Below are positions 26,283-42,319 of a stretch of 64,000 bases of DNA, in pieces. This DNA is from Gracilibacter sp. BRH_c7a (GTDB lineage: Bacteria; Bacillota; Desulfitobacteriia; Desulfitobacteriales; Syntrophobotulaceae), in NCBI GenBank assembly GCA_001516055.1, contig LOEZ01000082.1, positions 1 to 64,000 on the forward strand. The letters run 5' to 3'. A model generated the notes under the pieces. That model made no database searches and was not told the DNA's origin. It saw only the letters and a list, made by a program, of their open reading frames with translations. Every line of letters starts with the position of its first letter. Position 1 is the first letter of the stretch. The position numbers and the translations under genes were made by a program.

Positions 26283-26912
26283 TTAGAATATATCTTTAAT
26301 AACTTTAAATACTACACCGACGATTTCTACTTTTTCAGGTTCTAAGGCTCGATATCTACTGTTGGCAGGTTCCAATGTTATCTTGCTTTCAAGATGATAG
26401 AACCTTTTACATGTGACTTCTTCACTATTAACCCGAGCAATTACTGTCTGGCCGTTTTCAGCTGTTTCCTGTTTTCTTACCAGGACGATATCCCCGTCCG
26501 TGATTCCGATATCAATCATGGAATCCCCCTTAATCTTCAATGCGAAGACCAGTTCATCCTCCCGGGCAAAGGAGCCGGGGACAGGCAGATAATCCTCAAT
26601 ATCTTCCACTGGTATGGCTGGTGTTCCGGCAGGAACTCGACCAACTATGGGGATAAAGACCAAATCATGAACATATTCCCCGTAATAGTGTTGCGCTAAG
26701 CTTGGGTTTGTCTTAGGATGCTTCCCAAGCAAAAAATCCAGAGAAACATCGAAGTAACTGGACACTTTCTGCAGAAAATTGAAATCGGGTTCTCTCAAGC
26801 TCAGTTCATATAAAGATAAGGCCGAACGGGATACTTCAAGGGCACAGGCTAACTCATTTTGAGTTATATGCTTACTCTTGCGCAAACTTTTTAAAGTTTC
26901 TCCAAAGCTCAC
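26283..26912 (-). CDS. XRE/S24 self-cleaving repressor (LexA/CI-like)
   Basis: About 209 residues from a GTG behind AGAGGTGA (longer frames lack a site). Residues 1-65 are an XRE helix-turn-helix (TLKSLRKSKHITQNELACAL, then VSRSALSLYE). Residues ~90-209 are an S24 LexA/UmuD-type peptidase. The Ala-Gly cleavage bond lies in GRVPAGTPA, the catalytic Ser in KGDSMIDIG and the catalytic Lys in EVTCKRF. DNA damage and RecA would trigger autocleavage and release the operon. It faces away from the activator gene; the TGCTAC-type palindromes in the intervening region are its probable operators. It is the master switch of the tailocin locus. Confidence 0.88.
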   Translation of the reverse strand: MSFGETLKSLRKSKHITQNELACALEVSRSALSLYELSLREPDFNFLQKVSSYFDVSLDFLLGKHPKTNPSLAQHYYGEYVHDLVFIPIVGRVPAGTPAIPVEDIEDYLPVPGSFAREDELVFALKIKGDSMIDIGITDGDIVLVRKQETAENGQTVIARVNSEEVTCKRFYHLESKITLEPANSRYRALEPEKVEIVGVVFKVIKDIF

Positions 26913-26939
26913 GTAGTTCACCTCTAAGTAAATATTGTA

Positions 26940-26956
26940 CTCTACATTTAGTAGCA
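26940..26956. promoter_or_regulatory. Candidate repressor operator O2
   Basis: CTCTACATTTAGTAGCA: the right arm GTAGCA is perfect, the left arm matches 4 of 6 positions of the palindrome at 27011-27027, with the same 5-nt centre. It lies just upstream of the repressor start, so it probably serves autoregulation. Confidence 0.55.
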
Positions 26957-27005
26957 TTTCAATAGGATGAATCAAAATAAAATGAAAATAATTCCAAAAA
27001 GATGG

Positions 27006-27034
27006 TTGACTGCTACAAAACGTAGCAATATAAT
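27006..27034 (+). promoter_or_regulatory. Repressible promoter with operator O1 in the spacer
   Basis: TTGACT (27006-27011), 17 nt, TATAAT (27029-27034), a near-consensus sigma-A promoter. The spacer is occupied by the perfect palindrome TGCTAC-AAAAC-GTAGCA (27011-27027). A bound repressor would exclude RNA polymerase. It drives the activator gene at 27210. Confidence 0.75.
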
Positions 27035-27075: not shown

Positions 27076-27103
27076 TTTCCGAGCTTTTTCCGAGGTTTTG
27101 CCG
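27076..27103 (+). promoter_or_regulatory. Late-activator box 1
   Basis: A 28-bp element with three CCG units at 10-12 bp steps: TTTCCGAG, TTTTTCCGAG and GTTTTGCCG. It matches 29003-29030 at 26 of 28 positions. It is followed by AT-rich sequence with GATAAT at 27115. It lies between the repressible promoter and the activator gene, suggesting positive autoregulation. Confidence 0.7.
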
Positions 27104-27209
27104 TTTTAATATATGATAATACGATATGCTTATTATACTGGTGAAACCATCTGGAAGGATGCTTTTTAGATTGAATATTGTACTATTGTTTCAAGGGAGG
27201 AGTAAGACT

Positions 27210-27749
27210 ATGAGAGTACTGGATGACACTGTAATCAAAGAAATGGAATCAACTCTCCAGAGGTACTACCGAAAAATTGAAGAGTTGCAGAGTAAGCGAA
27301 AAGCCTTAGAAACAGTAGAGAAAAATGCAGATGATATAAGACGGATACTGCTGGATGTCAATCAGCTTATTCCATCTAACGGAACGGTGGCGAATTATAA
27401 CCTGATTGTGGCCGAATCAAGTGGAAGGGTATATGATACTACCGCCCAAGCCTATAATGAATTCTCTCGGTCTGTCGAGAAATTTGAGAGGGAACTGGTC
27501 ACCTTACTCCAAAAAAAAATCAAACTTAAAATGCAGATTATGCAGTTGGAAGCATCTCTCGAAGGGATCGGTTTTGCTCTAAACCTGCTCGATCCATTAG
27601 ACCGGACAATTTGTGAACAATATTACGGTGTAAAAAGGAAAAGTAACCTGCAGATAGGCCTGAGCCTTAATATGGATGAAAAGAGCATAAGATATCGTAA
27701 GAAGATAATCAATCAAAAGCTAAGCGAGTATTTGAAAGTGAGAAGGTAG
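27210..27749 (+). CDS. Sigma-70-region-4-like phage late activator (Xpf-type)
   Basis: 179 residues from an ATG behind AAGGGAGGAG (an earlier ATG at 27126 lacks a site). The N-terminal two-thirds are long, charged helices with coiled-coil character (YYRKIEELQSKRKALE). The C-terminal ~50 residues (LLDPLDRTICEQYYGVKRK, then SLNMDEKSIRYRKKIIN) form a region-4-type helix-turn-helix. B. subtilis Xpf, the PBSX late-gene activator, has the same place and design. The likely targets are the two 28-bp boxes at 27076 and 29003. It is followed by a hairpin terminator. Confidence 0.72.
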   Translation: MRVLDDTVIKEMESTLQRYYRKIEELQSKRKALETVEKNADDIRRILLDVNQLIPSNGTVANYNLIVAESSGRVYDTTAQAYNEFSRSVEKFERELVTLLQKKIKLKMQIMQLEASLEGIGFALNLLDPLDRTICEQYYGVKRKSNLQIGLSLNMDEKSIRYRKKIINQKLSEYLKVRR

Positions 27750-27778
27750 AGTTAGAGTATATTATGTTGGATACATGG

Positions 27779-27800
27779 GCCCGCTGAAAGGCGGGCTTTA
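27779..27800 (+). terminator. Hairpin after the activator gene
   Basis: GCCCGC (27779-27784) with GCGGGC (27791-27796), loop tgaaag, then TTTA. A similar hairpin (ACCGTCC/GGGCGGT, ~29070-29091) lies after the second activator box. The rest of 27800-28012 shows no gene. Confidence 0.6.
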
Positions 27801-28012
27801 CTCGTGGGGTTTTCACGTACCAGGACGAAGGTCCTATACCTAAAGACTCATTCTTGTATATCTACATAATTTCTACAATTTTAGCAAATAGTCAGTGGTA
27901 TAATAAATTTCACTATGGAAATTATTGTAAAAATATATTAATGAAGGATTTGATAAGGAACTACTTTCTGAAAATTAATCTTCTCTTGTTTTATAGGAGG
28001 AGGGATAAACAT

Positions 28013-28198
28013 TTGAAAGTGAAAGTATGGATAATTGAATGTATGGGAAAGCATGCTAAACTATGTATAGCCAAAGATCAAGATGAAGCGGAAATATTAG
28101 TTGGGCTTGAAGTCTTTGCAGATAAACAATTATTGGAGAGGGTTCTCAGACATGCCAAAAAGGAAATCAGAAAAAGTAAATATAAACAATATTCTTAA
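28013..28198 (+). CDS. Small tailocin-locus protein, 61 aa
   Basis: A TTG start at 28013 behind TAGGAGGAGGGA. The product starts KVKVWIIECMGKHAKLCIAK, is rich in charged residues and ends in a strongly basic helix (LRHAKKEIRKSKYKQYS). The upstream frame is open but has no ribosome binding site. It could be a DNA- or RNA-binding accessory protein. No family was recognised. Confidence 0.6.
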   Translation: MKVKVWIIECMGKHAKLCIAKDQDEAEILVGLEVFADKQLLERVLRHAKKEIRKSKYKQYS

Positions 28199-28232
28199 TT
28201 CAGGTGGGGTTTTAACCCCATCTGAATTTTAG
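28197..28232 (+). terminator. Rho-independent terminator
   Basis: AATTCAGGTGGGG (28197-28209) pairs with CCCCATCTGAATT (28216-28228), then TTA. It closes the early unit before the M23 gene. Confidence 0.75.
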
Positions 28233-28295
28233 AAGATGTTATCCAGGAGCTTAGCTTATTTCAGGTTTGGATAACTTTATCGAAAGGAGTGAACT

Positions 28296-28985
28296 ATGAT
28301 GCTCCCTCTAAAATCAGCCAGAGTAACCTATGTGTATGGCGTCAAAAATGGCAGATATGCCAAAGTCTACCACACCGGTATTGACTTGGCTTCAGCGGAG
28401 ACGTCTGTATATGCAGCGGTATCTGGTACAATCCTAGAAGCCCGGTACGCTCCTGGTAATGGAGCAGACCCTGCTGGTTGGGGGAATTATGTTATCCTGA
28501 GAACTCTGGATCACAGGTATGACATTATTAATGCTCATCTGGCTGACGTTCAAGTATCCCAAGGTTTAACAGTAGATGAAGGAACTCTTCTCGGCAAGAT
28601 GGGCAGTACAGGGAATAGCACAGGGCCACACTTGCATTTTGAAGTCAGGAAAACCCCCTGGATCGACAGGGACGATATAGATCCAGCGTCGTTCCTGGGG
28701 ATATATAACCGGGTAGGTCAGGTGGAAAAGGTATCGTCAACATCGATCAAGAACATAGTTCTTTGTCACCCCGGCCCGGATGAAAGGGCTGCCGGTTATC
28801 TAGCTGATTGTCTTAAAGCGCCTATTTGTTACCTCGCCAATACCACCCAGGAACTACTCCATCTTGCTGAACGGGTTTATGTGATAGGAAGCAGTGAAAA
28901 AGCATTCGCTAAAACGGTAAATATAGTTGGAGCCGACAGATATGATACCTGTCGGAAAGTTCTTGACATCTGTCAAAGGGAATAG
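28296..28985 (+). CDS. M23 metallopeptidase with CWB2-like C-terminal region
   Basis: 229 residues with no signal peptide. Residues ~20-140 are an M23 peptidase: HTGIDLA supplies the first zinc His and Asp, GNYVILR is the central strand, and GSTGNSTGPHLHFEVRK supplies the HxH pair. It would cut peptide cross-links in peptidoglycan. Residues ~150-229 end with VNIVGADRYDTCRKVLDI, which resembles cell-wall-binding repeat 2. It is placed before the structural genes and upstream of activator box 2, unlike PBSX, where lysis genes come last. AAAGGAGTG precedes the ATG. It may be the lysis enzyme, since no other peptidoglycan hydrolase occurs in the locus. Confidence 0.78.
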   Translation: MMLPLKSARVTYVYGVKNGRYAKVYHTGIDLASAETSVYAAVSGTILEARYAPGNGADPAGWGNYVILRTLDHRYDIINAHLADVQVSQGLTVDEGTLLGKMGSTGNSTGPHLHFEVRKTPWIDRDDIDPASFLGIYNRVGQVEKVSSTSIKNIVLCHPGPDERAAGYLADCLKAPICYLANTTQELLHLAERVYVIGSSEKAFAKTVNIVGADRYDTCRKVLDICQRE

Positions 28986-29002
28986 ACTTAAGAGTAATGA
29001 TC

Positions 29003-29030
29003 TTTCCGAGTTTTTTCCGATGTTTTGCCG
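29003..29030 (+). promoter_or_regulatory. Late-activator box 2, before structural operon
   Basis: Blocks TTTCCGAG, TTTTTTCCGA and TGTTTTGCCG. It differs from 27076-27103 only at the 9th and 19th bases. An AT-rich TATATATTATTATG follows at 29045. It is the probable start of structural gene transcription. Confidence 0.7.
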
Positions 29031-29186
29031 ATTATACACAGGAATATATATTATTATGACTATAGTGGGACCGTCCGATTGAGGGCGGTTTCAGTAATTA
29101 ATATGCCTGAATAAAAGTATTCTCAATATGGTGTGCCGGCAACGGCGGGTTAATGCAGCCAATAATGAGGCAGGGAGGGGCTTCGG

Positions 29187-29294
29187 GTGCAATATATACA
29201 AACTTCAGTAATCAATAATAAGAGAAAAAGCAGGCGCAGTATCAGGTCGCCTACATTACTGAACGGATTAGATAGTGTTCTTTCAGCAATCTAA
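29187..29294 (+). CDS. Small ORF, 35 aa, basic
   Basis: GTG at 29187 behind GGGAGGGG. The product starts VQYIQTSVINNKRKSRRSIR and ends NGLDSVLSAI. It lies between activator box 2 and the tail terminator gene and has a good ribosome binding site. It may be a real small gene or a translated leader. No family was recognised. Confidence 0.4.
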   Translation: MQYIQTSVINNKRKSRRSIRSPTLLNGLDSVLSAI

Positions 29295-29318: not shown

Positions 29319-29756
29319 ATGCAAGCGATAATTGATGCGGTGAGTGATCTGATACTGACGAAGTATCCTGGTTATGAAATATATGTGGAAGAGATACAGG
29401 AAGGCTTTAACAGGCCTTCTTTTTCTGTAGTTTTCATTCAGGAGACTCAAACTGACAGAAACAAACAATTCTATGCCAGGAACATTATCTTATACGTAAT
29501 CTTCAACGCACCGTTAAATGCCAATAATAAACCTGACAGAATTGTCCAGTATGAGGTTTACGAAAACCTCAGGAATCTGTTCAGCTGCGGCTATTTTGAT
29601 ACCGGCGACAGGAAAATCAAAATCCGGCAAATTACCGGAGGCCCAAAGGGTAAAGAGATCTATTTAGGATTAAACCTTGATACCACCGGGACCAAACCGG
29701 ATATTTCCGAGCAAGGTCAAATTGCGGATAGCTTAGATTTCAAAATTAACATTTAA
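29319..29756 (+). CDS. Tail terminator / DUF6838-type structural protein
   Basis: 145 residues with the alpha-beta layout of small tail-completion proteins: an N-terminal helix (MQAIIDAVSDLILTKYPGY), strands FSVVFIQETQTDR and IILYVIFNAP, and a C-terminal strand set. It stands immediately before the sheath gene, exactly where PBSX-type loci carry this protein. In tailocins it would cap the head-distal-less end of the tube. AGGGGGT lies ~13 nt upstream, somewhat far. Confidence 0.7.
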   Translation: MQAIIDAVSDLILTKYPGYEIYVEEIQEGFNRPSFSVVFIQETQTDRNKQFYARNIILYVIFNAPLNANNKPDRIVQYEVYENLRNLFSCGYFDTGDRKIKIRQITGGPKGKEIYLGLNLDTTGTKPDISEQGQIADSLDFKINI

Positions 29757-29774
29757 TAAGGAGGAAAAAGTACA

Positions 29775-30839
29775 ATGCCATTGCCAAAAATCAGCATTAT
29801 TTTTCAAGAGTTGGCCAGTACGGCCATCAAGCGGGGTGATCGCGGGATAGTAGCCCTTATTCTTAAGGACAGTGTCCATAACGGTGCAAGTATTTATATG
29901 ACGCAGGATGATGTCCCGGCAGACCTCAGCTCCGACAATCTAGAGCAGATCCAGTTAGCCTTCAAAGGCGGTGTAAATCCACCCCAAAAACTACTGGTTT
30001 ATATTCTGCCTACAACGGCGGAGAATTACAGTGAAGCTCAAACCTATCTGGAGGGATCCGTCTGGAACTATCTCGCCATCCCTGGAATTAGCTCCGCTGA
30101 TGCCACTGTGATGGCTAACTGGGTCATTGGCTTGAGGGAAAACCAAAACTTGAAAGTTAAAGCGGTTTTACCCAATACCGAAGCCGATCATGAAGGAGTC
30201 ATCAACTTTGCGACTGACAGCATTGTAATTGGGGGAGTAACCTCTACAGCTGCTCAATACTGTTCGAGAATAGCAGGTATCCTGGCAGGAAATCCGCTCT
30301 CGATTAGTGCCACTTTCCAGGTACTGCCCGAAGTCGATGATGTACCGCATCTCACAACCACCCAGTTTGATACGGCCATCGATGCCGGGAAACTAATCCT
30401 GATGAACGACGGGGAAAAAGTAAAAATTGCCAGAGCGGTAAACAGTCTCAGTACGTTTACCTCTGACAAAGGAGCCGACTTCCAGAAGATCAAGCTGGTA
30501 GACATCATGGATATGATCTACTCCGATATTAAGAAGACAACCAATGACACCTATATCGGCAAAATCCCCAATACCTATGATAATAAATGCCTCTTGATTA
30601 TGGCCATCAGAGCTTATTACGAGTCGCTGGAAGAGCAGCAGCTTCTCGATCGGGGAAAGAACTCCGTAGATATCGATATCCAAGCCCAAAAATTGTACCT
30701 GCAGTCTATCGGTGTGGACACCGGTGCAATGTCGGATCAGCAGATCCGGGAAGCCAATACCAGGGATAAGATATTCCTGGCAGGCCCGATTAAGATCGTA
30801 GACGCAATTGAAGACTTTGAACTGGTAGTAACCATTTAA
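29775..30839 (+). CDS. xkdK: Contractile tail sheath protein
   Basis: 354 residues. The N-terminus MPLPKISIIFQELASTAIKR followed by GDRGIVALIL is the typical sheath start. The C-terminal domain shows the conserved DIQAQKLYLQSIG and AGPIKIVDAIEDFEL region, whose last strand donates to neighbouring subunits. It is shorter than B. subtilis XkdK (~466 aa), lacking most of the outer domain, a compact form also seen in clostridial tailocins. AAGGAGG precedes the ATG. Polymerises around the tube and contracts to drive it through the target envelope. Confidence 0.9.
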   Translation: MPLPKISIIFQELASTAIKRGDRGIVALILKDSVHNGASIYMTQDDVPADLSSDNLEQIQLAFKGGVNPPQKLLVYILPTTAENYSEAQTYLEGSVWNYLAIPGISSADATVMANWVIGLRENQNLKVKAVLPNTEADHEGVINFATDSIVIGGVTSTAAQYCSRIAGILAGNPLSISATFQVLPEVDDVPHLTTTQFDTAIDAGKLILMNDGEKVKIARAVNSLSTFTSDKGADFQKIKLVDIMDMIYSDIKKTTNDTYIGKIPNTYDNKCLLIMAIRAYYESLEEQQLLDRGKNSVDIDIQAQKLYLQSIGVDTGAMSDQQIREANTRDKIFLAGPIKIVDAIEDFELVVTI

Positions 30840-30853
30840 GGAGGAGACAAAAC

Positions 30854-31300
30854 ATGGCACTTAGTCCAGAAAGAATAATCAACGGTACGCATGGTGATGT
30901 ATGGCTGGATGATGAGAAGGTCGCTGAATGCAGCGGCCTTCAAGCCAAAATCAATCTTATCAAAAGGGATGTCCAGATCTGCGGCCGCATGGCTAAAGGA
31001 TATAAAGTCACCGGCTGGGAAGGCAAAGGAAGCCTGAAACTGCATAAGGTCTCCAGCCGGATGGTCACTAAGATCGCCCAGGATATCAAAAACGGCAGGG
31101 GCACCATCTGCACCATCGTCTCCAAGCTGGCTGATCCGGATGCCTACGGCTCCGAGCGTATGGCCCTCAAAAACGTTATGTTCGACGAAGTATCCCTGGC
31201 CGACTGGGAAGCTGGTAAAAACGGCGAAGAAACCATCCCGTTCACCTTCAGCGACTTCGACCTGCTCGACATAATCGACCCTAACCTAATCCAAGGCTAA
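30854..31300 (+). CDS. xkdM: Tail tube protein
   Basis: 148 residues matching the XkdM-type tube subunit: RIINGTHGDVWLDDEKVAEC, GYKVTGWEGKGSLKLHKVSS, and a C-terminal strand pair before LLDIIDPNLIQ. It forms the rigid inner tube inside the sheath. It lies 14 bp after the sheath gene with AAGGAGG at its ATG. It is followed by a two-copy 26-bp repeat that separates it from the chaperone gene. Confidence 0.88.
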   Translation: MALSPERIINGTHGDVWLDDEKVAECSGLQAKINLIKRDVQICGRMAKGYKVTGWEGKGSLKLHKVSSRMVTKIAQDIKNGRGTICTIVSKLADPDAYGSERMALKNVMFDEVSLADWEAGKNGEETIPFTFSDFDLLDIIDPNLIQG

Positions 31301-31305
31301 CCCCC

Positions 31306-31357
31306 AGACAAGGGGACGGTTCTCCTGTCTCAGACAGGGGGACGGTTCTCTTGTCTC
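31306..31357. repeat. Two tandem 26-bp palindrome-ended repeats
   Basis: Units 31306-31331 and 31332-31357, each AGACA-(A/G)GGGGACGGTTCTC-(C/T)TGTCTC with AGACA/TGTCT ends in inverse orientation. They differ at two positions. The GGGGACGGTTCT core resembles a dispersed intergenic repeat known from many Firmicute genomes (from memory). They sit inside the structural operon. Confidence 0.8.
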
Positions 31358-31386
31358 AAGAATCTATAGGAAAGGAAAGATAAACC

Positions 31387-31794
31387 ATGAACACATTGGA
31401 ACTGCTGCTGAAAGCAGATACCGGACAATTCAAGCTGCCAACCAAAAAAGTGGAGATCCCGAGGCTGTCAGCTATCTTTAACGGCCAGGCGGTGTTTATC
31501 TGCCAGGCTTTGTCGCCGGTCAAATATAATGAGATTCAGGAAGCGGCAGCGAATTTCACTAACGGCCAGATTCAGGGCATCGACATGGGGCAAGTCCAAA
31601 TGACTACCGTTCTGGCTGGGGTAACAGACCCGAACCTCAAAGATAAGGAACTCATGACGCACTTCAATGTTCCCACTCCGGCAGAACTGGTCAAAAAACT
31701 GCTGCTCCCCGGAGAGATCGTGACCCTCTTTAATGTGATTTCTGAAATCAGCGGCTTCGGAGAAGACGTGATTAAAGAAGTAAAAAACGAATAA
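31387..31794 (+). CDS. xkdN: Tail assembly chaperone, zero-frame product
   Basis: 135 residues (NTLELLLKADTGQFKLPTKK, VFICQALSPVKYNEIQE) of the phage XkdN/gpG type, which coats the tape measure during assembly and is absent from the mature tail. The ATG follows GAAAGGAAAG. Its last codons GTA AAA AAC GAA TAA contain an A-AAA-AAC slippery heptamer, and the -1 frame continues for 53 more codons. Confidence 0.85.
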   Translation: MNTLELLLKADTGQFKLPTKKVEIPRLSAIFNGQAVFICQALSPVKYNEIQEAAANFTNGQIQGIDMGQVQMTTVLAGVTDPNLKDKELMTHFNVPTPAELVKKLLLPGEIVTLFNVISEISGFGEDVIKEVKNE

Positions 31795-31949
31795 ACACGG
31801 ATGGCTGGGCGGAGATGCTTTATTACTACTGGGTGAAACGAGGGATCAGGCCGTCCGTGTTTGCTTCGATGCCGTATGGGGAGAGGATGGTGGTCAGGGC
31901 GTTTTATGAGAGGGAGATCGCAGATATTATTAGAAAGTCGAGTGATTAA
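31387..31949 (+). CDS. Tail assembly chaperone, -1 frameshift extended product (gpGT-like)
   Basis: Slippage at 31782-31788 into the -1 frame gives about 133 residues of the chaperone plus a 53-residue extension starting RINTDGWAEMLYYYWVKRGI and ending IRKSSD at TAA 31947-31949. The extension has no start codon or ribosome binding site of its own. It reads as a compact helical domain that would bind the tape measure, as gpT does in phage lambda. Long and short forms made in a fixed ratio are the rule in this chaperone class. Confidence 0.72.
31782..31788 (+). other. -1 programmed ribosomal frameshift heptamer
   Basis: A AAA AAC in frame with the xkdN-like codons gtA-AAA-AAC, five to eleven nt before its TAA stop. 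Confidence 0.7.
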
Positions 31950-31964
31950 AGAAAGGAGGAAAAA

Positions 31965-33053
31965 ATGAATATATTAGATAGTATCAAGAAAATTTCGGGC
32001 AATAATCCTGACTTGACATATTCAATAATCGATTCATTAACGAATGGCATTGGAAGAGAAATGACCAGTAAAGAACAGGACAAAGAGAGACTATCCACTA
32101 TTGCTGTCGGGCAGTTCAATAAGGTCACTAGCGGCATTCTTGGCGGAAAGTTGGGGGAATTGATTGAAAAGAATTATCTGGTAAAATCTTATTATGATTT
32201 TGCCAAGGACAATATAAAAACAGTCCCAATGGTGTCAGGAGGACAATTGAAACTACCTAAATTTAAATTTACTCCTCCAAAAATACTTCTCCCCGTCTCA
32301 AAACTAATACCTAATCAGTTGCTGGAATTCGTTGCTCCGAAAATGGAATACTTAGAACGTTTTAAATTTAAAATGCCTAAGTTGACTATTCCCAAGATAT
32401 CAGCATTTGGAAGAATGTCTAATCCTTTAGGAATAATCGTGGGTGGATACGGAGGATTAGGGCTTGATTTATTATATAAAAAATTAAATGGAGACCCGAT
32501 TAATAAAGATGAAGTTATTAAGAGATTGAAAAAAGCAACTGGTGCCAGTATCGGAGGGCTCATTGGATTTGGGGTTGGCACAGCATTGTTCGGACCTATC
32601 GGAGGAATGTTATTGAGTACAGTTGGGGGTATGGCAGGAGATCTGATATCTAAAGGTATTGACAAAGCCTCTGACTTTTTATATTCAAAAGGTTCTGCTG
32701 CAAAGGCTGGAATCGGAAGATTTGCAGCAGATAAATATAATTCTTTATATCAAACGATGAGCACGATGAGAGATCCACTCTTTCCGCTCAATTTATATAA
32801 CTTTCCATTTCCTTCTCTTTTGACTCATGCCATCGGCATCCCCCGCGTCCCCTACGACAACTACCCCGCTCTTCTCCATGAAGGCGAATCCGTCCTAACC
32901 AAAAGGGAAACCAATAATCTGCGGAACGGAATGGCTTCCATTAGTATCGCCAAACTCTCCGATACCATCATCGTCAGAGAAGACGCGGATATCGACAGGA
33001 TCGCCAATACCCTTGTAAGCAGGATCAAGCAAACAGCCATTAATATGGCCTAG
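31965..33053 (+). CDS. Short tape measure protein
   Basis: 362 residues, far shorter than PBSX XkdO (~1300). Residues ~155-260 contain glycine-rich hydrophobic helices (GGLIGFGVGTALFGPIGGML). The C-terminus AIGIPRVPYDNYPALLHEGE and onward to VLTKRETNN is the conserved end of Firmicute tape measures. It sets tube length, so this predicts a very short tail. Base composition changes abruptly at about 32825: the 5' part is AT-rich, the 3' part GC-rich like its neighbours, suggesting a recombined or trimmed gene. GAAAGGAGG precedes the ATG. Confidence 0.75.
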   Translation: MNILDSIKKISGNNPDLTYSIIDSLTNGIGREMTSKEQDKERLSTIAVGQFNKVTSGILGGKLGELIEKNYLVKSYYDFAKDNIKTVPMVSGGQLKLPKFKFTPPKILLPVSKLIPNQLLEFVAPKMEYLERFKFKMPKLTIPKISAFGRMSNPLGIIVGGYGGLGLDLLYKKLNGDPINKDEVIKRLKKATGASIGGLIGFGVGTALFGPIGGMLLSTVGGMAGDLISKGIDKASDFLYSKGSAAKAGIGRFAADKYNSLYQTMSTMRDPLFPLNLYNFPFPSLLTHAIGIPRVPYDNYPALLHEGESVLTKRETNNLRNGMASISIAKLSDTIIVREDADIDRIANTLVSRIKQTAINMA

Positions 33054-33074
33054 AAGTGAGTAGGTGAGAGAATT

Positions 33075-33695
33075 ATGGAATTCTGGCTGAAAAGCTACAA
33101 TAACACCCAGCAGCTGCAGCTTCCGGTCCCGCCTTCTTCTTTTGTTCTGACTCAGGGAAATTTGAACACCACGGTCAACATCCAGGATGCCGGCGAAATC
33201 AACCTCATCGGCAAAGGCAAGCTGGCAGCGGTCAGTCTGAGTTCATTTTTCCCGCAAGAAAAATATTATTTTTGCCAATACAGCGGTTTTCCCTCCCCGT
33301 ATGATTGCGTCAGGAGAATTGAAAACTGGCGGAAGTCCGGGAATCCGATCAGGCTGATTATCACCACTACCGAGATTAATCTCCCTGTATCCATTGAAAA
33401 CTTCGAGTATGGAGAAAAAGAAGAAGGAACCGGGGATGTCTATTTTACCCTTAACCTGAAAGAGTACAGGCTCATCAATACCGAGACCAGTATCTCAAGC
33501 ATCAAAGACGCAGTCCAGACTTCGAGATCCAATGAAAGAGAATTGCCTCCGACATACACTGTAAAAGCAGGGGATACCCTGTGGGCGATCGCCAAAAGGT
33601 TCTATAGTGACGGATCCAAATACCCTTCCCTAGCCGCCAGGAACGGTATTAAGAATCCCAATCTGATCTATCCCGGGCAGGTATTGAAACTATGA
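33075..33695 (+). CDS. xkdP: LysM-containing tail protein
   Basis: 206 residues. The N-terminal part ([20 protein letters not shown]) is the XkdP domain that joins tube and hub. The C-terminal ~50 residues are a LysM fold ([20 protein letters not shown], then [13 protein letters not shown]) that binds peptidoglycan glycans. It overlaps the next gene by 4 nt. Confidence 0.88.
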
Positions 33696-34645
33696 AAATC
33701 CAGCTGATAGAAACGGCCCGAAAAAGTGATATAACTCGGCTTGTCCCCCAAATCGTATGGAGCGGGGACACTAAACAGGCGGCCAGAAAACTGGAAATCG
33801 AGGTAATAGCCTCTTCAGATATAAATATTCCCAAAGTAAATCTTAGCCCGGGCAACATGCTCAAACTGGCGGAAGATAACGGAGCAGAGCTGTTCACGGG
33901 CTATATTTTTGCTCAGGAACGTACCGTCGCCAGCAACACGGTAAGGGTCACGGCGTATGACGGGCTGATTTACATGTTGAAATCCAAAGCGACCTATAAC
34001 TTCAAGAATACGACAGCGGAGGCTATCGCAGCCAAGGTGGCCAAAGACTTCGGTATTGAGATTATGGAGCTGATAAAAACAGGCATCATCCAGAATCTTG
34101 TGGTCAGCTCGCAGACACCGTATGCGATCATCACCGGGGCCTATGCCGCGGCCGGACAGCAAAACGGAAAAAAATATCTGTGCACCATGAAGAATAACAA
34201 ATTGGTAATCCGGGAAAAAGGTGCCGTCACTGCTGACTTCCTCCTTAGCTCCCACCTGAATATCACGAGTGCTTGCTATACGGAAAGCATTGAAAATATG
34301 GTCAACCGGGTCAAGATCTATGATGCTGGCGGGGAGAGCACAGGCAAGGTCGAGAATGAAGAATGGGTCAGGAATTACGGTATGATTCAGGAGGTTCTTC
34401 ACAAGGAAGCGGGACAAGACTGGCAGACGGCAGCCAAAAATATGCTGAAAGGGCTGGCAAGAAGCGGCAATATTTCTGCTCTGGGCAACACCGGATGCCT
34501 GTCCGGCACCTCGGTAAAGATCCAGGAACCGTTTACCGGTCTGAGCGGATTATTTGAGATAGATACCGACTGTCATATCTGGCAGGAAGGCCGGTATACC
34601 ATGGATCTGGGGCTTCATTTTAGCGGCATGGAAGGGGAGGAATGA
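33692..34645 (+). CDS. xkdQ: Baseplate hub protein
   Basis: 317 residues of XkdQ type: [20 protein letters not shown] at the start and [20 protein letters not shown] in the middle, with the C-terminal [20 protein letters not shown] segment typical of gp27-like hubs. It forms the trimeric ring at the tube tip. ATGA overlap with the LysM gene shows translational coupling. Confidence 0.88.
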
Positions 34646-35061
34646 GGACTATGATGAATACTCAAAACCCATACTCTGATCTGATTGCGATCATGCAGTC
34701 CCAGGGTACGAAATACAACCCTCCTCATCTTAAAATAGGAAAGGTGACCAACCCGCTGCCGCAGCTGCTTATCATAGTGGATGAGCTGCAGCTTGACCGG
34801 GATAACCTGTTGATGTCGGAACACCTGCTCGATCACACCCGTACGGCCGGTATGGCCGCAACAGCCGGCTGCGGCGAAACGGCTCCGGCCGAGGTAGGGG
34901 AGCATGGCGTCCATTCACATAACATTGCCCAGGTCGGTTTTGCCGAGGGGGAGATCAACTTCAGGGAATGTTTGCGCCAAGGAGATCTGGTGGCGCTGCT
35001 GCCGCTGGAAAAGCAACAGACCTATATAGTACTTTGCAAGGTGGTGAGTCTTAATGGCTGA
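34642..35061 (+). CDS. DUF2577 tail protein (XkdR-like)
   Basis: 139 residues. NPYSDLIAIMQSQGTKYNPP at the start and NFRECLRQGDLVALLPLEKQ at the end are characteristic. The middle has an Ala/Gly/His-rich stretch (TAGMAATAGCGETAPAEVGE) that is longer than usual and probably flexible. It sits between hub and DUF2634, as in PBSX. The ATG may be 34642 (ATGA overlap) or 34651/34654. Confidence 0.78.
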   Translation: MRTMMNTQNPYSDLIAIMQSQGTKYNPPHLKIGKVTNPLPQLLIIVDELQLDRDNLLMSEHLLDHTRTAGMAATAGCGETAPAEVGEHGVHSHNIAQVGFAEGEINFRECLRQGDLVALLPLEKQQTYIVLCKVVSLNG

Positions 35062-35485
35062 GTCGATTTTCCCATTCATTCAGGATACGGCTGCAGCGGA
35101 TCCTGATCAGAATCAGGAATTGTCTGTTCCGCGGGAATACGCCTGGGACTTTAACAACGACTGTTTCAGAATGATTGACGGCAAACTCTCGGTAGTTACG
35201 GAGCTGGAGGCGGTCAGGATCTGGGCCATGAAAGCGTTAAGGACAACAAGGTTCAGGTATCTGGCTTATTCCTGGAATTATGGGAACGATCTGGAGAATT
35301 TGACGGGGCAGGGGTTGAGCAGAGAGATTGCTTGGAGCGAGGCTATGCGCTATACGCGGGAAGCTTTGCTGTCAAACTCGTATATCCTGGAGGTAAAAGA
35401 CTTTAATGTTGACTTGAGTGATTCTATCCTGCGGGTTGAATGTGCTCTGATTACACCCTATGGGGAGGTGGAAATAAGTGTTTGA
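35054..35485 (+). CDS. xkdS: DUF2634 baseplate protein (XkdS, gp25-like)
   Basis: 143 residues. REYAWDFNNDCFRMIDGKLS and VRIWAMKALRTTRFRYLAYS with YGNDLENLTGQG are diagnostic. It links the hub to the wedge. It overlaps both neighbours. Confidence 0.87.
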   Translation: MAESIFPFIQDTAAADPDQNQELSVPREYAWDFNNDCFRMIDGKLSVVTELEAVRIWAMKALRTTRFRYLAYSWNYGNDLENLTGQGLSREIAWSEAMRYTREALLSNSYILEVKDFNVDLSDSILRVECALITPYGEVEISV

Positions 35486-36542
35486 GGGACAAACGTATAA
35501 GGAAATACTGCAGAGGTTAAAGAGTAAGGCGCCTTCCGGAATAGACAGTTCGGAAGGCAGTTTTATTCATGACGTTCTTTCCCCGGCAGCGCTGGAGCTG
35601 GCCCAACTTTATGTGAACCTGGACCTGGTCCTGACCATGGCTTTCGCTCAGACCACCAGCGGGGAATATCTCGATTACCGGGCGGGCGAGCATGGGATAG
35701 AACGAAAACCTGCCGTAAAGGCAGCCGGAACGGTGACAATAACCGGAAGTCAGGGGATAGAGATCGAAGAAGGACAGGTTTTTGTCACTGACGGCGGCAT
35801 CGAATTTGAGTCCGCTGAGCCTTCCGTTATTCAGTTGGGCGGGACGGTGGAAGTCGATATCCAGGCCAGGAACGCGGGAATTACCGGCAACGTACCGGTC
35901 GGAGCAATCAATAAAGCCCAGGTGGCCCTTCAGGGGGTGACAGGGATAGCCAATGAAAGCCCGGTCACCGGGGGTACGGATGAAGAGGCAGATCAAGACC
36001 TGCTCTTAAGACTGCTGGACAAGGTACGCTATCCTGTGACCAGCGGCAATGTTTCCCATTACCTGCAATGGGCGAGAGAAGTCACCGGCATAGGTGATGC
36101 CAGGGTATTCCCGCTATGGGATGGTCCGGGCACAGTCAAGATTATTATTGTGGATTCCGAGAAGGCACCTGCCGGTCCTGAAGCTATTGCTGTGACAGCG
36201 GATTATATCGAATCTGTCAGACCGGTAGGCGCTGAAGTAACGGTGGAAGCGGCGGTTGGAGTGGCTATCGACGCAGCAGCGACGGTCACCCTAATGGACG
36301 GCTATTCAGCTGCGCAAGTGGAAGCATCATTCCGGGAGCTATTAACAGCGCACCTGAAAGAAACGGTCTTCAGGCAGGACTATGTCAGTTATGCCAAGAT
36401 CGGCAGTATCCTGCTGGAGACCCCGGGAATCCTGGACCATTCAGAGCTGACGGTAAACGGCGGAACGTCCAACGTATCCATCGGTGACACTGTCGATAAC
36501 TGCCAGGTACCCATCGCAGGGACGGTGACCTTGAATGAGTGA
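35478..36542 (+). CDS. xkdT: Baseplate J-like wedge protein
   Basis: 354 residues from a GTG behind GGGGAGG. The sequence shows FEGQTYKEILQRLKSKAPSG, then LDYRAGEHGIERKPA and the GGTDEEADQDLLLRLLDKVR motif typical of J proteins. The C-terminus carries the Ig-like strands VNGGTSNVSIGDTVDNCQVP. It forms the baseplate wedges that trigger sheath contraction. Confidence 0.9.
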   Translation: MFEGQTYKEILQRLKSKAPSGIDSSEGSFIHDVLSPAALELAQLYVNLDLVLTMAFAQTTSGEYLDYRAGEHGIERKPAVKAAGTVTITGSQGIEIEEGQVFVTDGGIEFESAEPSVIQLGGTVEVDIQARNAGITGNVPVGAINKAQVALQGVTGIANESPVTGGTDEEADQDLLLRLLDKVRYPVTSGNVSHYLQWAREVTGIGDARVFPLWDGPGTVKIIIVDSEKAPAGPEAIAVTADYIESVRPVGAEVTVEAAVGVAIDAAATVTLMDGYSAAQVEASFRELLTAHLKETVFRQDYVSYAKIGSILLETPGILDHSELTVNGGTSNVSIGDTVDNCQVPIAGTVTLNE

Positions 36543-37146
36543 CAGAGCAGCGGTAGTTAAGGGCTATATACCGGATTGGATAGCGGAAAAAGAACCGGTC
36601 AAGTCAGTACTGACGGGACTGGGCCAGGATACGGGACTGGCGGAGGATTCGGTCAGGGATGTCCTCTCCCAGTGCTTCACCGATACCGCTACCTGGGGTT
36701 TAAAGTACTGGGAAGAGTACCTGGGGATCGCGGTCAATGCGAGCAGGCCGCTGAGCTACAGGCGAAGCGTAGTGAAGTCCAAACTCAGGGGAGCTGGGAC
36801 TACAACAGCTTCCCTGATAGAAGAAATAGCGGGGAGCTATCAGAACGGCGATGTAGATGTTACGGAGGTATCCAGGGAGAATAAGATCCAGATCAAGTTC
36901 AACAGTATCTATGGAACACCCCCGAATATTGAGGATCTCCAGACAGCGATGAACGGGATCATCCCTGCCCATCTTCTGATCGAATATCTTTACACCTACC
37001 TGACCTGGAGTGAGCTGGATGAAGCCGGTCTCACCTGGGCCGATCTTGACGACGCGCAGTTGACCTGGACAGAGTTTGAAAGCTGGAATCCGGAACAACA
37101 GCCTATCCCCAGGTATAGCTTGGGCTGCACTTTCTGCGAACCTTAA
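36535..37146 (+). CDS. DUF2313 baseplate/tail protein (YmfQ, gpI-like)
   Basis: 203 residues with LSYRRSVVKSKLRGAGTTTA and the C-terminal IPAHLLIEYLYTYLTW. The end holds three short Trp repeats (LTWSELDEAGLTWADLDDAQ, LTWTEFESW), a tandem motif also known from other YmfQ relatives that may contact fibres. It overlaps the J gene by 8 nt. Confidence 0.85.
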   Translation: MSDRAAVVKGYIPDWIAEKEPVKSVLTGLGQDTGLAEDSVRDVLSQCFTDTATWGLKYWEEYLGIAVNASRPLSYRRSVVKSKLRGAGTTTASLIEEIAGSYQNGDVDVTEVSRENKIQIKFNSIYGTPPNIEDLQTAMNGIIPAHLLIEYLYTYLTWSELDEAGLTWADLDDAQLTWTEFESWNPEQQPIPRYSLGCTFCEP

Positions 37147-37163
37147 AAATAGGAGGGATATTA

Positions 37164-37556
37164 ATGCCATACACATTTCCGACAGACAGCAATAATAAAG
37201 CCGGTGCGGTGAAAAATAAAGCCGGTGGGAACGATTTTATCGTACCGGTGCAAGAAACAGCCTTTGATCATTATGAAGCCAGAAGAGTGACTCTGACAGC
37301 CGAAACAAACGAGGCTGTAATTTTCTCGTCCCCGTGTTTATACTTCGATGTCCAGAACTTAAGCGACAGCGATAAAGTATACGCAAAAGCAGGAGGCACG
37401 GATTTCACGGACAGCACCGGCGCGGAGACAGACACGGAAGCAATCAGGATCAAGCCCGGAGGCGGGTACATGATCCCGAAAACCGGGACAACGGTGAAAC
37501 TGATCAGCGGGGGAACGCCTATAATCCAGGTCATAGGGGTGTGGAACGATGCGTAA
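37164..37556 (+). CDS. Tailocin structural protein of unknown role, 130 aa
   Basis: The product is beta-rich: YTFPTDSNNKAGAVKNKAGG, VTLTAETNEAVIFSSPCLYF and a C-terminal GGTPIIQVIGVWNDA. It resembles small fibre-attachment or tip proteins in sheathed tails, but no family was recognised. AGGAGGG precedes the ATG. It overlaps the next gene by 8 nt. Confidence 0.6.
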   Translation: MPYTFPTDSNNKAGAVKNKAGGNDFIVPVQETAFDHYEARRVTLTAETNEAVIFSSPCLYFDVQNLSDSDKVYAKAGGTDFTDSTGAETDTEAIRIKPGGGYMIPKTGTTVKLISGGTPIIQVIGVWNDA

Positions 37557-37917
37557 TTTATTTGGCGGGTATAGTTTGGCGGCGATCGATGTTAAGGTGA
37601 GAGCGGATTTGGGGGAGCATATGGCAGATGAAGCGACACAAGTAATTCACGAAAAGAACGTCTCTATTTTGTCTGCCAGTTGGGTTGATGATACAGCTAC
37701 AAGCGGGTATTGGATATACGAAATTAACCATGCAGACGTTACCGCAGATTCAGTAGTTGACGTAAATATCCATCTTTCTAACCTTGAAAATGCCAGCGAT
37801 ATTAAGTCTGTCACAGAAAATTTTGCAGGGAAATACAGGCTTTATGCAGACGCACAGCCATCCGTAGACATAACTGCCGATGTCAGGATTACTAATGAGA
37901 TAGGCGGTGTTGCTTAA
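37549..37917 (+). CDS. Fibre-region protein of unknown role, 122 aa
   Basis: An N-terminal short helix (MRNLFGGYSLAAIDVKVRAD), then a beta domain. A TAATG junction couples it to the large fibre candidate. No family was recognised. The composition shifts here from GC-rich to AT-rich. Confidence 0.55.
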   Translation: MRNLFGGYSLAAIDVKVRADLGEHMADEATQVIHEKNVSILSASWVDDTATSGYWIYEINHADVTADSVVDVNIHLSNLENASDIKSVTENFAGKYRLYADAQPSVDITADVRITNEIGGVA

Positions 37918-39176
37918 TGGCTTACGGTAAAACAAATATAGGTGGAGGATTAAAAATTAACGACACCAGCAAACAGAACTTTGTAATCGCCTCTGGTCAA
38001 ACCACAGTCAAGGGTGATAAGCTCAAAATTGTTAATGGGCAGGTAGCGAAAATCAACGAGAATGATTTCAGAGTAATTCCTTATGAATCGAGAATAAAGA
38101 GTGCTGCTCTGTCTACGATAAATTGCGATAAAATATTGCAAATAGACGACACACATTTCCTGACGTTAGTTAGAAATTCATCCAATCAAGTACGCCTGTG
38201 CATATTTAGAGTTAATCCCGATGAGACAATAAGCTACGGGCTTTCTAATGAGATTTACAATGTCGATTCTACTTATATGGACTTTAAAATGTACGATGAA
38301 AATATAGGGCTCTTTGCGTATATGTATAATGATACTAATGATTATGGGCGTGCAATAGTTTTCAATGTCAATAAGGTGACCTTGAGTATAACGATAGGTA
38401 CTGCAACAGTATTTCAATCAGTCAAAGTATGGGAGATGGGCATAGCTTTTCTATCGGCAACAAAAGCGATAATTTTCTTTAGGAATTTTAATCAAAGTCA
38501 TTATTGCTACGCTTCTTTAATCACTATATCTTCGCTTTCGTTTTCTGTTGACAGCACAACAGTAATATATTCGCAAGGGACTTACGATCTCGAAACAGAG
38601 GGACTAGATTCATCAAGAGCATTATTAGTTATTGAATCCCCATATCAAGGGACAGACAAAGCAAATGTAGTTACCATAAGCGGTTCTACGCTGATACCAG
38701 GAACTACAGTTGATATGGGAGTGCGTTCCGAGGCAAGGAATATTAAGAAAGTAGATATTGATACTATCGTCGTTGCTGGCGAAATGTACGCCTATGAAAT
38801 TGCAGTTGATGGTACTGCTCCAAGCAGGTTATCCTCCAGAAGTATAACATCGGGCATGAATCCGTTTATCGCTGGCGTAGAAGAAATAATATACTCCACT
38901 ACACGAACCATAAATGATTTTAGTGCTTTTCAGATAGCAAAAACAGTAAATTTTGGAACGCTGGCAAAAGCGGATATATTAGAAAATGATGCTAGTGATG
39001 GGGTTGGTAGGGTACACATAATTAAGTCAGGGGAAAAATACATTGCAGTATTTAATTACAAATATACCACTGATACCTTCGTGATATACCATGCGGTATT
39101 GACTAAACGGACTGCGGAGGCCATCGCTAACCAAGCGGGGGTCGGTGGTGAGACTATTGAAGTTATATTGTTATAA
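37917..39176 (+). CDS. Putative receptor-binding tail fibre, 419 aa
   Basis: The product shows repeated beta-strand units of about 40-50 residues in the middle (IGLFAYMYNDTNDYGRAIVF, KAIIFFRNFNQSHYCYASLI, SRALLVIESPYQGTDKANVV), suggesting a propeller. The C-terminus ANQAGVGGETIEVILL resembles the small trimeric knob that ends many phage fibres and capsid spikes. AT-rich codon use differs from the baseplate genes. As the largest gene directly after the baseplate, it is the best specificity candidate. The call is inference from place and fold pattern. Confidence 0.55.
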   Translation: MAYGKTNIGGGLKINDTSKQNFVIASGQTTVKGDKLKIVNGQVAKINENDFRVIPYESRIKSAALSTINCDKILQIDDTHFLTLVRNSSNQVRLCIFRVNPDETISYGLSNEIYNVDSTYMDFKMYDENIGLFAYMYNDTNDYGRAIVFNVNKVTLSITIGTATVFQSVKVWEMGIAFLSATKAIIFFRNFNQSHYCYASLITISSLSFSVDSTTVIYSQGTYDLETEGLDSSRALLVIESPYQGTDKANVVTISGSTLIPGTTVDMGVRSEARNIKKVDIDTIVVAGEMYAYEIAVDGTAPSRLSSRSITSGMNPFIAGVEEIIYSTTRTINDFSAFQIAKTVNFGTLAKADILENDASDGVGRVHIIKSGEKYIAVFNYKYTTDTFVIYHAVLTKRTAEAIANQAGVGGETIEVILL

Positions 39177-39190
39177 GGAGGATGCCTTAA

Positions 39191-39496
39191 ATGAAAGTTT
39201 TAGTTAATAAGTATACCCATGTAGTAATAGACATCAGGGAGGTTGCTGAGTTTGTAGAAAATGGCATTAGTGTTGGTGATTGCATCTATGCTGGAGATTA
39301 CATCGAACTACATGATGTGGCAGACATACCGACAGGGGTGAAACCTCAAAAATCCTGCTACAAAACAGATGTAGGTTTTTACGATAATCTAAATTATGTC
39401 CCGCCAGAAAGTGAAGAAATTATAACGTTGAAGCAACGTGTAGCGGACCTTGAACTTCAGATTTCTCAATTACTTACACAAGGAGGTACAACCTAA
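39191..39496 (+). CDS. Small fibre-associated protein, 101 aa
   Basis: AAGGAGG precedes the ATG. The product starts MKVLVNKYTHVVIDIREVAE and ends in a short coiled coil (TLKQRVADLELQISQLL). This N-domain plus heptad tail design occurs in small phage tail proteins after fibre genes. It may be a fibre chaperone. Confidence 0.55.
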   Translation: MKVLVNKYTHVVIDIREVAEFVENGISVGDCIYAGDYIELHDVADIPTGVKPQKSCYKTDVGFYDNLNYVPPESEEIITLKQRVADLELQISQLLTQGGTT

Positions 39497-39649
39497 TGAA
39501 ACCTTGGACAGAAAGAATATTTAAAAGCACCAACGAACACCTTCAGAAAGAGGGGAAAACGTTGACGAAGCTATGGCAGAACTGGAACTTCCAGTGGTGA
39601 TTGACAAGAAGAAGGTTAAAGATGATTTAAAGGCTAAGAAAACTAAGTA
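39496..39649 (+). pseudogene. Frameshifted small protein gene
   Basis: The ATG at 39496 overlaps the previous stop (TAATG). The zero frame reads MKPWTERIFKSTNEHLQKEG and stops at TGA 39598-39600. The -1 frame from about 39555 continues in keeping with it: ENVDEAMAELELPVVIDKKK, ending KAKKTK at TAG 39648-39650. One missing A in the GGGGAAAA run at 39552-39559 explains the break. A programmed shift is less likely because the run is not a classic heptamer. Confidence 0.5.
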
Positions 39650-39669
39650 GTTATGTCACATTAGATTCA
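39647..39669. repeat. Direct repeat flanking fibre cassette, left copy
   Basis: GTAGTTATG-T-C-A-CATTAGATTCA; it matches 41701-41723 at 21 of 23 positions. A 10-bp inverted repeat AGATTCACTA (39663-39672) / TAGTGAATCT (39707-39716) overlaps its end. Confidence 0.7.
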
Positions 39670-39742
39670 CTATGCAACTTTACTGGAATTTTTCTTTAGT
39701 AATTGTTAGTGAATCTGCTTGGGAAGATATTAAAAAGTCTTC
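39663..39742. repeat. Inverted repeat and hairpin in the 39.65-39.80 kb gap
   Basis: AGATTCACTA / TAGTGAATCT with a 34-nt loop, followed at ~39721-39742 by GGAAGA/TCTTCC with TCCGTTT after it. A similar hairpin ending in TTCCGTTT follows the second fibre cassette near 41756. Confidence 0.55.
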
Positions 39743-39798
39743 CGTTTATTATGAAGGGGAGTCCAGTAAATCTTCATTAACAAAGGAGGCGAGATTAA

Positions 39799-40020
39799 AT
39801 GCCCGAATACACTTCCAATTTTAATTTACCGAGACCACTTTCAAATGAAAACGTGAGTAGGGCCGCTCATAATGATTTAGTTGAGGCTATAGATATCAAT
39901 GTTGGGAACGCTTTAAGTGCACATTTGGCTGATAATACGCAACATCCATTAGTGACAGATACCCTTGACAATAATGACGGTAGACCTGACGGAACAATCC
40001 TATTTTATATAGGAGCGTGA
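39799..40020 (+). CDS. Small fibre-cassette protein, 73 aa
   Basis: AAAGGAGG precedes the ATG. The product starts MPEYTSNFNLPRPLSNENVS and ends RPDGTILFYIGA. The N-terminus resembles the baseplate-anchoring segment of phage fibres (an F-L-P-R-P pattern). It is 4 bp before the large DNRLRE fibre, so a two-gene unit is likely. Confidence 0.55.
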   Translation: MPEYTSNFNLPRPLSNENVSRAAHNDLVEAIDINVGNALSAHLADNTQHPLVTDTLDNNDGRPDGTILFYIGA

Positions 40021-40024
40021 TTCG

Positions 40025-41704
40025 ATGAGTGAAGCAATAGAAAAACGAAGTTTAAATTCTAAGCATTTCTTAAATGAGAATGGTAGTTTTACTGCACAGA
40101 TACATGCTACGCCAATCCATCACATTGATTGGACTACAGGAGAATTATTAGATAATGACTATACTATTGTCCCTGAAATAAATTGGGAGTTTGAATATGC
40201 CGTAAAAAAAAATAATTTTAGAGCATATTTCAATGATTCTACTGATATTAAGAACGCTACACTTGCAAGTTTTGAGATTCTGAATAGTCAGGGAGTAGTC
40301 AGGTGGATAAATTATAAGTTATTTGGGGCAGACCCAACTGGGCATTTATACAAAGAAAATCGGTTTAAATACTATAATGTATTTCCGAATGTTGACCTAG
40401 AATACATCGTTAGCTCTGAAAGACTTAAAGAAAATATTATTGTCAAAGAATCTACCGCAAATTTTAGCTATACGTTTACTCTCAAAATGAGTGAAGGGTT
40501 AAAACTAGAACAACAGCCTGATGGTAGTATATTCTTTATAGACACAGATACAGGAGAAGAACTGTGGGAAATATCTAGACCTTATGCAGAAGATAGTTCT
40601 CCAGAAGTTATCAGGACAGAAGCGGTAGCCTATACTCTAGGAAAGCAAATCTATGAAGGGATTGAGTATGATTCTATCACGGTAGATTTATTAGAGGATA
40701 TTTCTAAGCTTACTTTTCCTATAGTAATTGACCCGACTGTGACAATAATATCTAACACGTCAAACTGGATGGATACTAGGGTGTTTAGCGGTGACCCTGA
40801 TTATACAGGCTCTGGTGATGATAATATACTATATTTAGGTTTTAACTCGACGCTTGCAGAAAGCAGAATTTTATTTCAACCTGATTTAAGTTCTATTCCT
40901 AGTAATGCAAAAATAATCTCAGCAGTCGCTTCTCATTATTTAACTATAGATAATGGAGGAAGTATTACTGTCAGAACTTATAGTATAGAAGAGCCTTGGA
41001 GTGATAATTTCGGAGTCACATCTTGGAATACCATGCCGTCTGTGAGAAGCTATTTAGGTTCTTTATCTAACGTTAATTCTGGCGGTTATTATGATTTTCC
41101 ATTAACTACTTATTCTGATGATTTTCAAAAAATAATTAGTGGTGAATTACCCAACTATGGATTTTATCTAATGTCTATCACAGTAACAGCTAGTACCCAT
41201 AAAGCATTCTATAGTTCAGAACACACAAGTAGCGGAAGTAGACCAACACTTACTGTAGAATATAATGTACCACCGTCTGCACCAGTGATAACAAGTCCAA
41301 TAAGTGGAGTTTCAATAGATTCCACCCATACGATTACATGGAATCTTTCTACCGATGCTGAAACAGCACAAGGCAGTTTACAGTATAATGCTGATTTATC
41401 CATTGACGATGGTTTAACGTATCCTTATGAGATTGTAGCTTTAACAGCCGCAGGAGAGACATCTTACGAATATGACTTTAGTGCCATTCCTGAAAGCGCA
41501 ATTTGTAAGATAAGGCTAAGAGCTTTTGATGGAGCGTCCTTTGGTGGTTATGGTTATTCAGATACCTTTGAAATAAGTCATGGCAAAGGGTATGTAAAAG
41601 TGAATGGGGAGTATGTAAAAGTCAAAATATTCGTGAAGGGTAGTGGGGTTTATGTAGAAGCAAAGGCATATAGAAAAGTGAATGGAGTATACGAAAAAAT
41701 GTAG
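40025..41704 (+). CDS. Large DNRLRE-domain tail fibre / adhesin, 559 aa
   Basis: Residues ~1-230 form a beta domain found at the N-terminus of large secreted RHS/DNRLRE proteins (LNENGSFTAQIHATPIHHID, FPNVDLEYIVSSERLKENII, FPIVIDPTVTI). Residues ~235-410 are a DNRLRE jelly roll (ESRILFQPDLSSIPSNAKII, WSDNFGVTSWNTMPS). Residues ~413-515 are an FN3-like module. The last 45 residues contain short Gly-Tyr-Val-Lys repeats (GYVKVNGEYVKVKIF, YRKVNGVYEKM). It is very AT-rich. DNRLRE is common in cell-surface proteins and rare in tail fibres, so it may bind surface polysaccharide of target cells. Confidence 0.65.
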   Translation: MSEAIEKRSLNSKHFLNENGSFTAQIHATPIHHIDWTTGELLDNDYTIVPEINWEFEYAVKKNNFRAYFNDSTDIKNATLASFEILNSQGVVRWINYKLFGADPTGHLYKENRFKYYNVFPNVDLEYIVSSERLKENIIVKESTANFSYTFTLKMSEGLKLEQQPDGSIFFIDTDTGEELWEISRPYAEDSSPEVIRTEAVAYTLGKQIYEGIEYDSITVDLLEDISKLTFPIVIDPTVTIISNTSNWMDTRVFSGDPDYTGSGDDNILYLGFNSTLAESRILFQPDLSSIPSNAKIISAVASHYLTIDNGGSITVRTYSIEEPWSDNFGVTSWNTMPSVRSYLGSLSNVNSGGYYDFPLTTYSDDFQKIISGELPNYGFYLMSITVTASTHKAFYSSEHTSSGSRPTLTVEYNVPPSAPVITSPISGVSIDSTHTITWNLSTDAETAQGSLQYNADLSIDDGLTYPYEIVALTAAGETSYEYDFSAIPESAICKIRLRAFDGASFGGYGYSDTFEISHGKGYVKVNGEYVKVKIFVKGSGVYVEAKAYRKVNGVYEKM

Positions 41705-42273: not shown

Positions 42274-42319
42274 CAAAGTTTTTCAGGATGCAAGGATGAG
42301 GAGAAAGGGGGGAGGAGTC

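Follow-up and report, generated by a model that had tools for sequence, protein, structure and literature searches.

What switches on a set of phage-tail genes, and does the regulator that does so also act on its own gene? These questions are raised by a locus in the window, by which we mean the whole 64,000-nt stretch analysed here (Gracilibacter sp. BRH_c7a, contig LOEZ01000082.1). The features of the locus are collected in Table 1. No head or terminase genes were recognised among the ORFs scanned between 29319 and 43048, and as judged by its sheath, tube and baseplate genes, without recognised head or terminase genes, the locus is a contractile tailocin. A first-pass annotation had proposed that two near-identical 28-bp boxes, one preceding a small regulatory gene and the other the tail operon, mediate positive autoregulation and late activation by an "Xpf-like" protein, making up a bistable commitment switch. 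Our analysis indicates that box 1 and box 2 are very probably the operators of the 27210-27749 activator at two activated sigma-A promoters, from which the activator would fire its own gene and the tail operon.

Table 1. Features of the control region and the tail operon, in window coordinates
Feature	Position	Strand	Remarks
Divergent repressor, XRE-type HTH and S24 (LexA/CI-like) autopeptidase	26283..26975	-	Pfam and TIGR00498
Putative second repressor operator, CTACatttaGTAG, near repressor start	26942..26954	.	sequence; predicted binding
Near-consensus promoter, TTGACT-17-TATAAT	27006..27034	+	predicted repressor control
Box 1, three 11-bp direct repeats	27076..27103	+	putative autoregulatory activator site
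-10 hexamer TATGCT	27125..27130	+	21 bp 3′ of box 1
Activator, 179 aa, coiled-coil hairpin and sigma-region-4-like HTH	27210..27749	+	RinA/ArpU/phrog_36-like
M23 endopeptidase, between activator and late promoter	28296..28985	+	Pfam M23, 3e-22
Box 2, three 11-bp direct repeats	29003..29030	+	putative late-operon activator site
-10 hexamer TATTAT	29052..29057	+	21 bp 3′ of box 2
Promoter-proximal hairpin ACCGTCC-GATTGA-GGGCGGT	29070..29089	+	terminator-like or 5′ mRNA stabiliser
Conserved leader RNA, GNRA-type hairpin GCCG-GCAA-CGGC, ahead of tail operon	29130..29192	+	
Tail operon: tail terminator, sheath, tube, XkdN-like, tape measure, LysM, hub, baseplate J, tail proteins, holin	29319..43048	+	

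Both boxes belong to a composite promoter element

The presence, position and similarity of the two boxes were confirmed. They are identical at 26 of 28 bases, with mismatches at box positions 9 and 19, and each carries three CCG units (starting at 27079, 27090 and 27101 in box 1, and at 29006, 29017 and 29028 in box 2), with a period of exactly 11 bp. The repeat unit is approximately TTTCCGAnnTT, and the repeats are in direct orientation. The boxes first noticed are therefore real, but two accompanying elements had been overlooked. In both cases a sigma-A-like -10 hexamer is found exactly 21 bp past the last CCG, with no recognisable -35 element, and a promoter predicted to be controlled by a repressor (27006-27034) lies upstream of box 1.

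When the window was searched with the 28-mer consensus, allowing up to 3 mismatches, box 1 and box 2 were the 2 sites obtained (shuffled sequences are expected to give 0). A genome-wide search revealed exactly 2 copies of the T-rich box in the 4.1-Mb genome, and the composite motif (box, 21 bp and TAnnnT) was likewise present exactly twice in the 4.1-Mb assembly; the controls gave 0 hits in both cases. The initial statement that there is no other copy is true for this genome, and related genomes carry extra ones. The bare CCG-8-CCG-8-CCG skeleton was dropped as evidence, with 10 hits genome-wide and 6 in the reversed control. A second TAnnnT-like element was also observed in roughly half of 17 promoters, 30 bp past the last CCG and often as TACAGTG or TATAGTG; in the window it occupies positions 27134-27139 and 29061-29066, near the predicted transcription start.

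Box and spacing are kept in relatives and in held-out loci

Five sister-genus genomes encode activator orthologues (67-70% identity) together with a tandem paralogue. In 5/5 of these genomes, which are close relatives and not independent events, box 2 precedes the late operon and box 1 lies between the paralogues, and the box, the 21 bp and TAnnnT are kept at both positions. In G021, box 2 is made up of four repeat units. Taking these five genomes together with four IMG/VR tailocin records, the late box was found in 9/9 and the activator-upstream box in 8/9. Both boxes are present in the IMG/VR records L073 and L074, and record L072, which is identical to the window, starts at the activator and has only box 2 observable. 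Record G465 (L109/L118), with an activator 61% identical, carries three boxes, one 5′ of the activator and two 5′ of the fibre and tail modules.

Six boxes from the window and the sister genus served to train a profile, which was then run on nine held-out loci with homologues of 61-27% identity. An outlier late-promoter site was detected in 9/9 loci, corresponding to 7 distinct sites (L112/L113 share one, and L102/L114 share one), with scores of 12.6-48.5, where shuffled sequences averaged about -2 to -5. For the GACGA variant shared by L102/L114, the score of 12.6 compares with maxima of 10.4 and 12.9 among the shuffles; since this about equals the highest shuffle, the case rests on the exact geometry of the site. 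In L109 an extra profile hit was obtained before the activator. All 17 promoters, the six training promoters included, have TAnnnT at a distance of exactly 21 bp, and the mean -10 score was 4.57 at this spacing and 3.58 at the next-best one. The 21-bp spacing was top-scoring in 14 of the 17 promoters, second in 2, and fourth in box 1 of the window, where the -10 ranks 4th among the -10-like hexamers of its AT-rich stretch.

Because relatives share the box and the spacing at both positions, late activation and positive autoregulation by the 27210 product, as first proposed, are strongly supported by comparison; the words "Xpf-like" and "bistable" do not stand as written (see below). The boxes can be tied to the activator, because even in prophages that are unrelated, homologues of the activator have the box nearby. 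At the loci of the prophage homologues only the late box was observed, and for this reason self-activation looks tailocin-specific. In the activator tree, a single clade (100/100) unites the tailocin activators and excludes those of the prophages. This clade also takes in the tandem paralogues, with the G465 paralogue as a long branch of uncertain place. Since the window holds the box-1-proximal activator type only, it is likely that the first paralogue was lost in the window lineage.

A hairpin and a leader RNA follow the late promoter

A hairpin starting 7-43 nt past the -10, usually followed by a T-run, was found at 10 of 11 late promoters and at 0 of 6 activator or satellite boxes; these promoters are partly related, and at a score of -10 or below such hairpins were present in 89 of 1500 random segments, coding DNA included. 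Lambda-type Q is a DNA-bound late regulator that acts at a promoter with a terminator-like hairpin downstream. By analogy, the late promoter of the window may be likened to this arrangement in its terminator-like hairpin, and it differs in lacking a -35 and in apparently needing activation. The distribution of the hairpin, together with a weak Phage_antitermQ hit in one homologue (E 0.013), would fit an activator that is also a Q-like antiterminator, such that polymerase modified at the late box passes the terminator and a second lock is placed on the tail operon. The hairpin of the window (29070-29089), however, has a weak U-tract, which is clear in several relatives, and the relatedness of the loci and the coding DNA in the background sample weigh against this reading as well. 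Several of the late-promoter hairpins lie right at the 5′ terminus of the RNA and could just as well shield the mRNA, so that terminator/antitermination and mRNA stabilisation are both possible. We consider the antiterminator function a rather unlikely one; it would add to the operator function of the boxes.

Between the hairpin and the tail operon, a leader RNA was found in tailocins only (the window, L118, L022, L024, L073 and L074). Its tetraloop is GCAA, GAGA, GUGA or GAAA across relatives, and a comparison of 29130-29192 with Rfam gave no match. A small ORF as the explanation of this element was dropped, since spacers of 7, 6 and 4 nt do not preserve a common reading frame among relatives.

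The activator is nearest to RinA/Ltr proteins

The start of the activator was set at 27210. An ATG further upstream, at 27126, was dropped because it overlaps the -10 of box 1, whereas 27210 has a ribosome-binding site and agrees with the relatives. The phrog_36 model was matched by 9/9 family members (best 4e-21), the RinA model TIGR01636 by 8/9 (best 4e-9) and ArpU by 5/9, and the window activator itself reached 23.2 bits with the NCBIfam RinA model, under the cut-off of 31.9. The family therefore matches these three models weakly to moderately. An INPHARED tblastn search and a search of PDB sequences with the activator gave no match, and scans of the contig databases, run with the protein as well as with alignment A1, gave no relatives.

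The AF2 model of the activator (pLDDT 82.9) consists of a long helical hairpin followed by a three-helix C-terminus. With Foldseek, the C-terminal domain was matched to sigma region 4 (3hug_E, TMt 0.78, prob 1.0), a fold match that rests on a short domain and in which the E-values were all >0.1. The gene is located 1.25 kb 5′ of box 2, and the prophage homologues sit ahead of terminase or late genes. Among named families, the activator is nearest to the RinA/Ltr late activators rather than to Xpf-type sigma factors.

The sigma-region-4-like C-terminus, the weak TIGR02937 hits in 9/9 homologues and the position of the third CCG near -35 could point to a true alternative sigma factor (Xpf/ECF type), with the CCG boxes as its -35 element. 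This is very unlikely. Domain searches revealed no sigma2 domain in the activator, and its N-terminus is modelled as the helical hairpin; furthermore, the -10 is sigma-A-like (TATGCT/TATGAT/TATAAT), and a -35 hexamer is unlike three or four phased repeats. Xpf, from Bacillus PBSX, is comparable in being a sigma-like factor that exerts positive control in a defective contractile phage element. It is listed as a sigma factor with sigma2 and sigma4 (PMC10141391), and this published domain description sets it apart from the window activator. "Xpf-like" was thus a loose term for a protein that shows only a sigma4-like C-terminus and has RinA/ArpU/phrog_36 as its nearest named families.

A small gene (28013-28198, 61 aa) lies between the activator and the M23 gene. 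In sister-genus relatives a protein similar to its product is encoded upstream of the repressor, and the gene has therefore moved.

A probable second promoter precedes the activator gene

The divergent repressor matched Pfam HTH_3 (2e-11) and Peptidase_S24 (5e-31), and TIGR00498 lexA above the cut-off. An inverted repeat, GCTACaaaacGTAGC (27012-27026), is located inside the spacer of the 27006-27034 promoter, and this arrangement is kept at the same place in the sister-genus relatives, as revealed by comparison; an inverted repeat similar to CTACatttaGTAG is also present in relatives. Box 1 starts 41 bp past the TATAAT of this promoter. The activator hence appears to have two promoters, one predicted to be repressor-controlled and one box-controlled.

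Box 1 lies within the transcript of the upstream promoter, where a bound protein could be a roadblock, and might accordingly be read as a site of negative autoregulation. We regard this as highly improbable, because the geometry between box 1 and its -10 equals that of the late promoters, and because in relatives box 1 lies between tandem paralogues, away from the repressor-controlled promoter, with the same geometry. That the divergent XRE/S24 repressor uses the boxes as its operators, as their place in one regulatory region and the adjacency of box 1 to the repressor-controlled promoter might suggest, is scarcely credible, since a different inverted repeat (GCTAC-n5-GTAGC) occupies the 27006-27034 spacer and recurs near the repressor start, and since the boxes are direct repeats that are kept in unrelated prophages beside activator homologues.

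With the boxes as operators of the activator, we propose the following sequence of events. DNA damage would lead to autocleavage of the S24 repressor, a presumed SOS input, and loss of the repressor would free the 27006-27034 promoter and provide the first activator. The activator would then act at box 1, giving more activator, and at box 2, giving expression of the tail operon, both the binding and the direction of regulation being predicted. At each box, the three repeats would line up activator subunits on one helix face, at approximately -58 to -34, and the sigma-region-4-like domains would replace the -35 contact and recruit RNA polymerase. A bistable commitment switch may be a consequence of this positive feedback, but it goes beyond what the sequence itself displays.

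Comparison with known late activators

Direct repeats 5′ of a late promoter are the established mode of action for Alt and phi13 Ltr (PMC13123087). For Alt of phage TP901-1 there are four repeats from -76 to -32, and for phi13 Ltr the repeats, of 18 bp, extend from -107 to -42 and are essential; phi13 Ltr exerts no feedback on its own expression (PMC13123087). The window resembles the RinA/ArpU/Ltr systems (phi11, phi13) and Alt in having a small activator gene just before the late operon and imperfect direct repeats at the late promoter. It differs from the RinA/ArpU/Ltr phages in its units of 11 bp (18 bp in phi13), with a strict period and 21 bp to the -10, and in an operon without recognised head genes, and from phi13 Ltr in the second box 5′ of the activator. 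Sequence comparison indicates that self-activation was an addition made in a tailocin lineage to a late switch of phage type.

In Pseudomonas pyocins the P-box consists, as a rule, of four repeats of 10-11 nt (PMC4905994, PMC8609362), and P-boxes are also found 5′ of unlinked pyocin genes (PMC4905994). The likeness of the proposed circuit to PrtR/PrtN is in its logic, in which an SOS-cleaved repressor is followed by an activator and then by the tailocin genes (PMC8609362), and homology is not claimed. The locus has an S24 repressor gene and, within the promoter spacer, an inverted repeat, and control of the activator gene through repressor binding and cleavage is predicted. The repeat sequence differs, and the extra, putatively autoregulatory site is without counterpart in the publications consulted.

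Unlinked copies of the promoter motif

In G003 and G013, the composite motif was found 5′ of an unlinked gene whose 1230-aa product combines SH3, Ig-like, M14 and M23 domains and is probably a cell-wall hydrolase. In G003 it was also found 5′ of a two-gene cassette, fibre-like by reading alone and with no Pfam match. Such copies suggest a dispersed regulon, comparable to the one under the pyocin P-boxes. The lysin and fibre-like genes that carry the motif would then work together in the killing system, and would escape a search based on gene clusters. The operator (three 11-bp units, 21 bp and TAnnnT) is searchable, for a class of phage late activators that is poorly characterised, and regulons could be predicted from sequence by means of it. 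A broader and speculative proposal, to which we give little credence as a whole, is that this late-activator family joins, across related phages, the three-repeat 21-bp promoter with Q-like terminator control, and that tailocins added the self-activation box and spread the promoter to unlinked lysin/fibre-like genes, giving a self-amplifying dispersed regulon.

A box-like site is present in G012 (L058, position 4674), a genome with no detectable activator; its -10-like hexamer is at 22 bp, and there is no clear gene close downstream. In G003 and G013 (L020, L022) the tail genes 3′ of box 2 are mostly gone, yet these genomes retain the activators, box 1, box 2 and the unlinked boxes. The unlinked box sites are at position 5439 of L055, at 5693 of L056 and, on the reverse strand, 5501 from the far end of L057.
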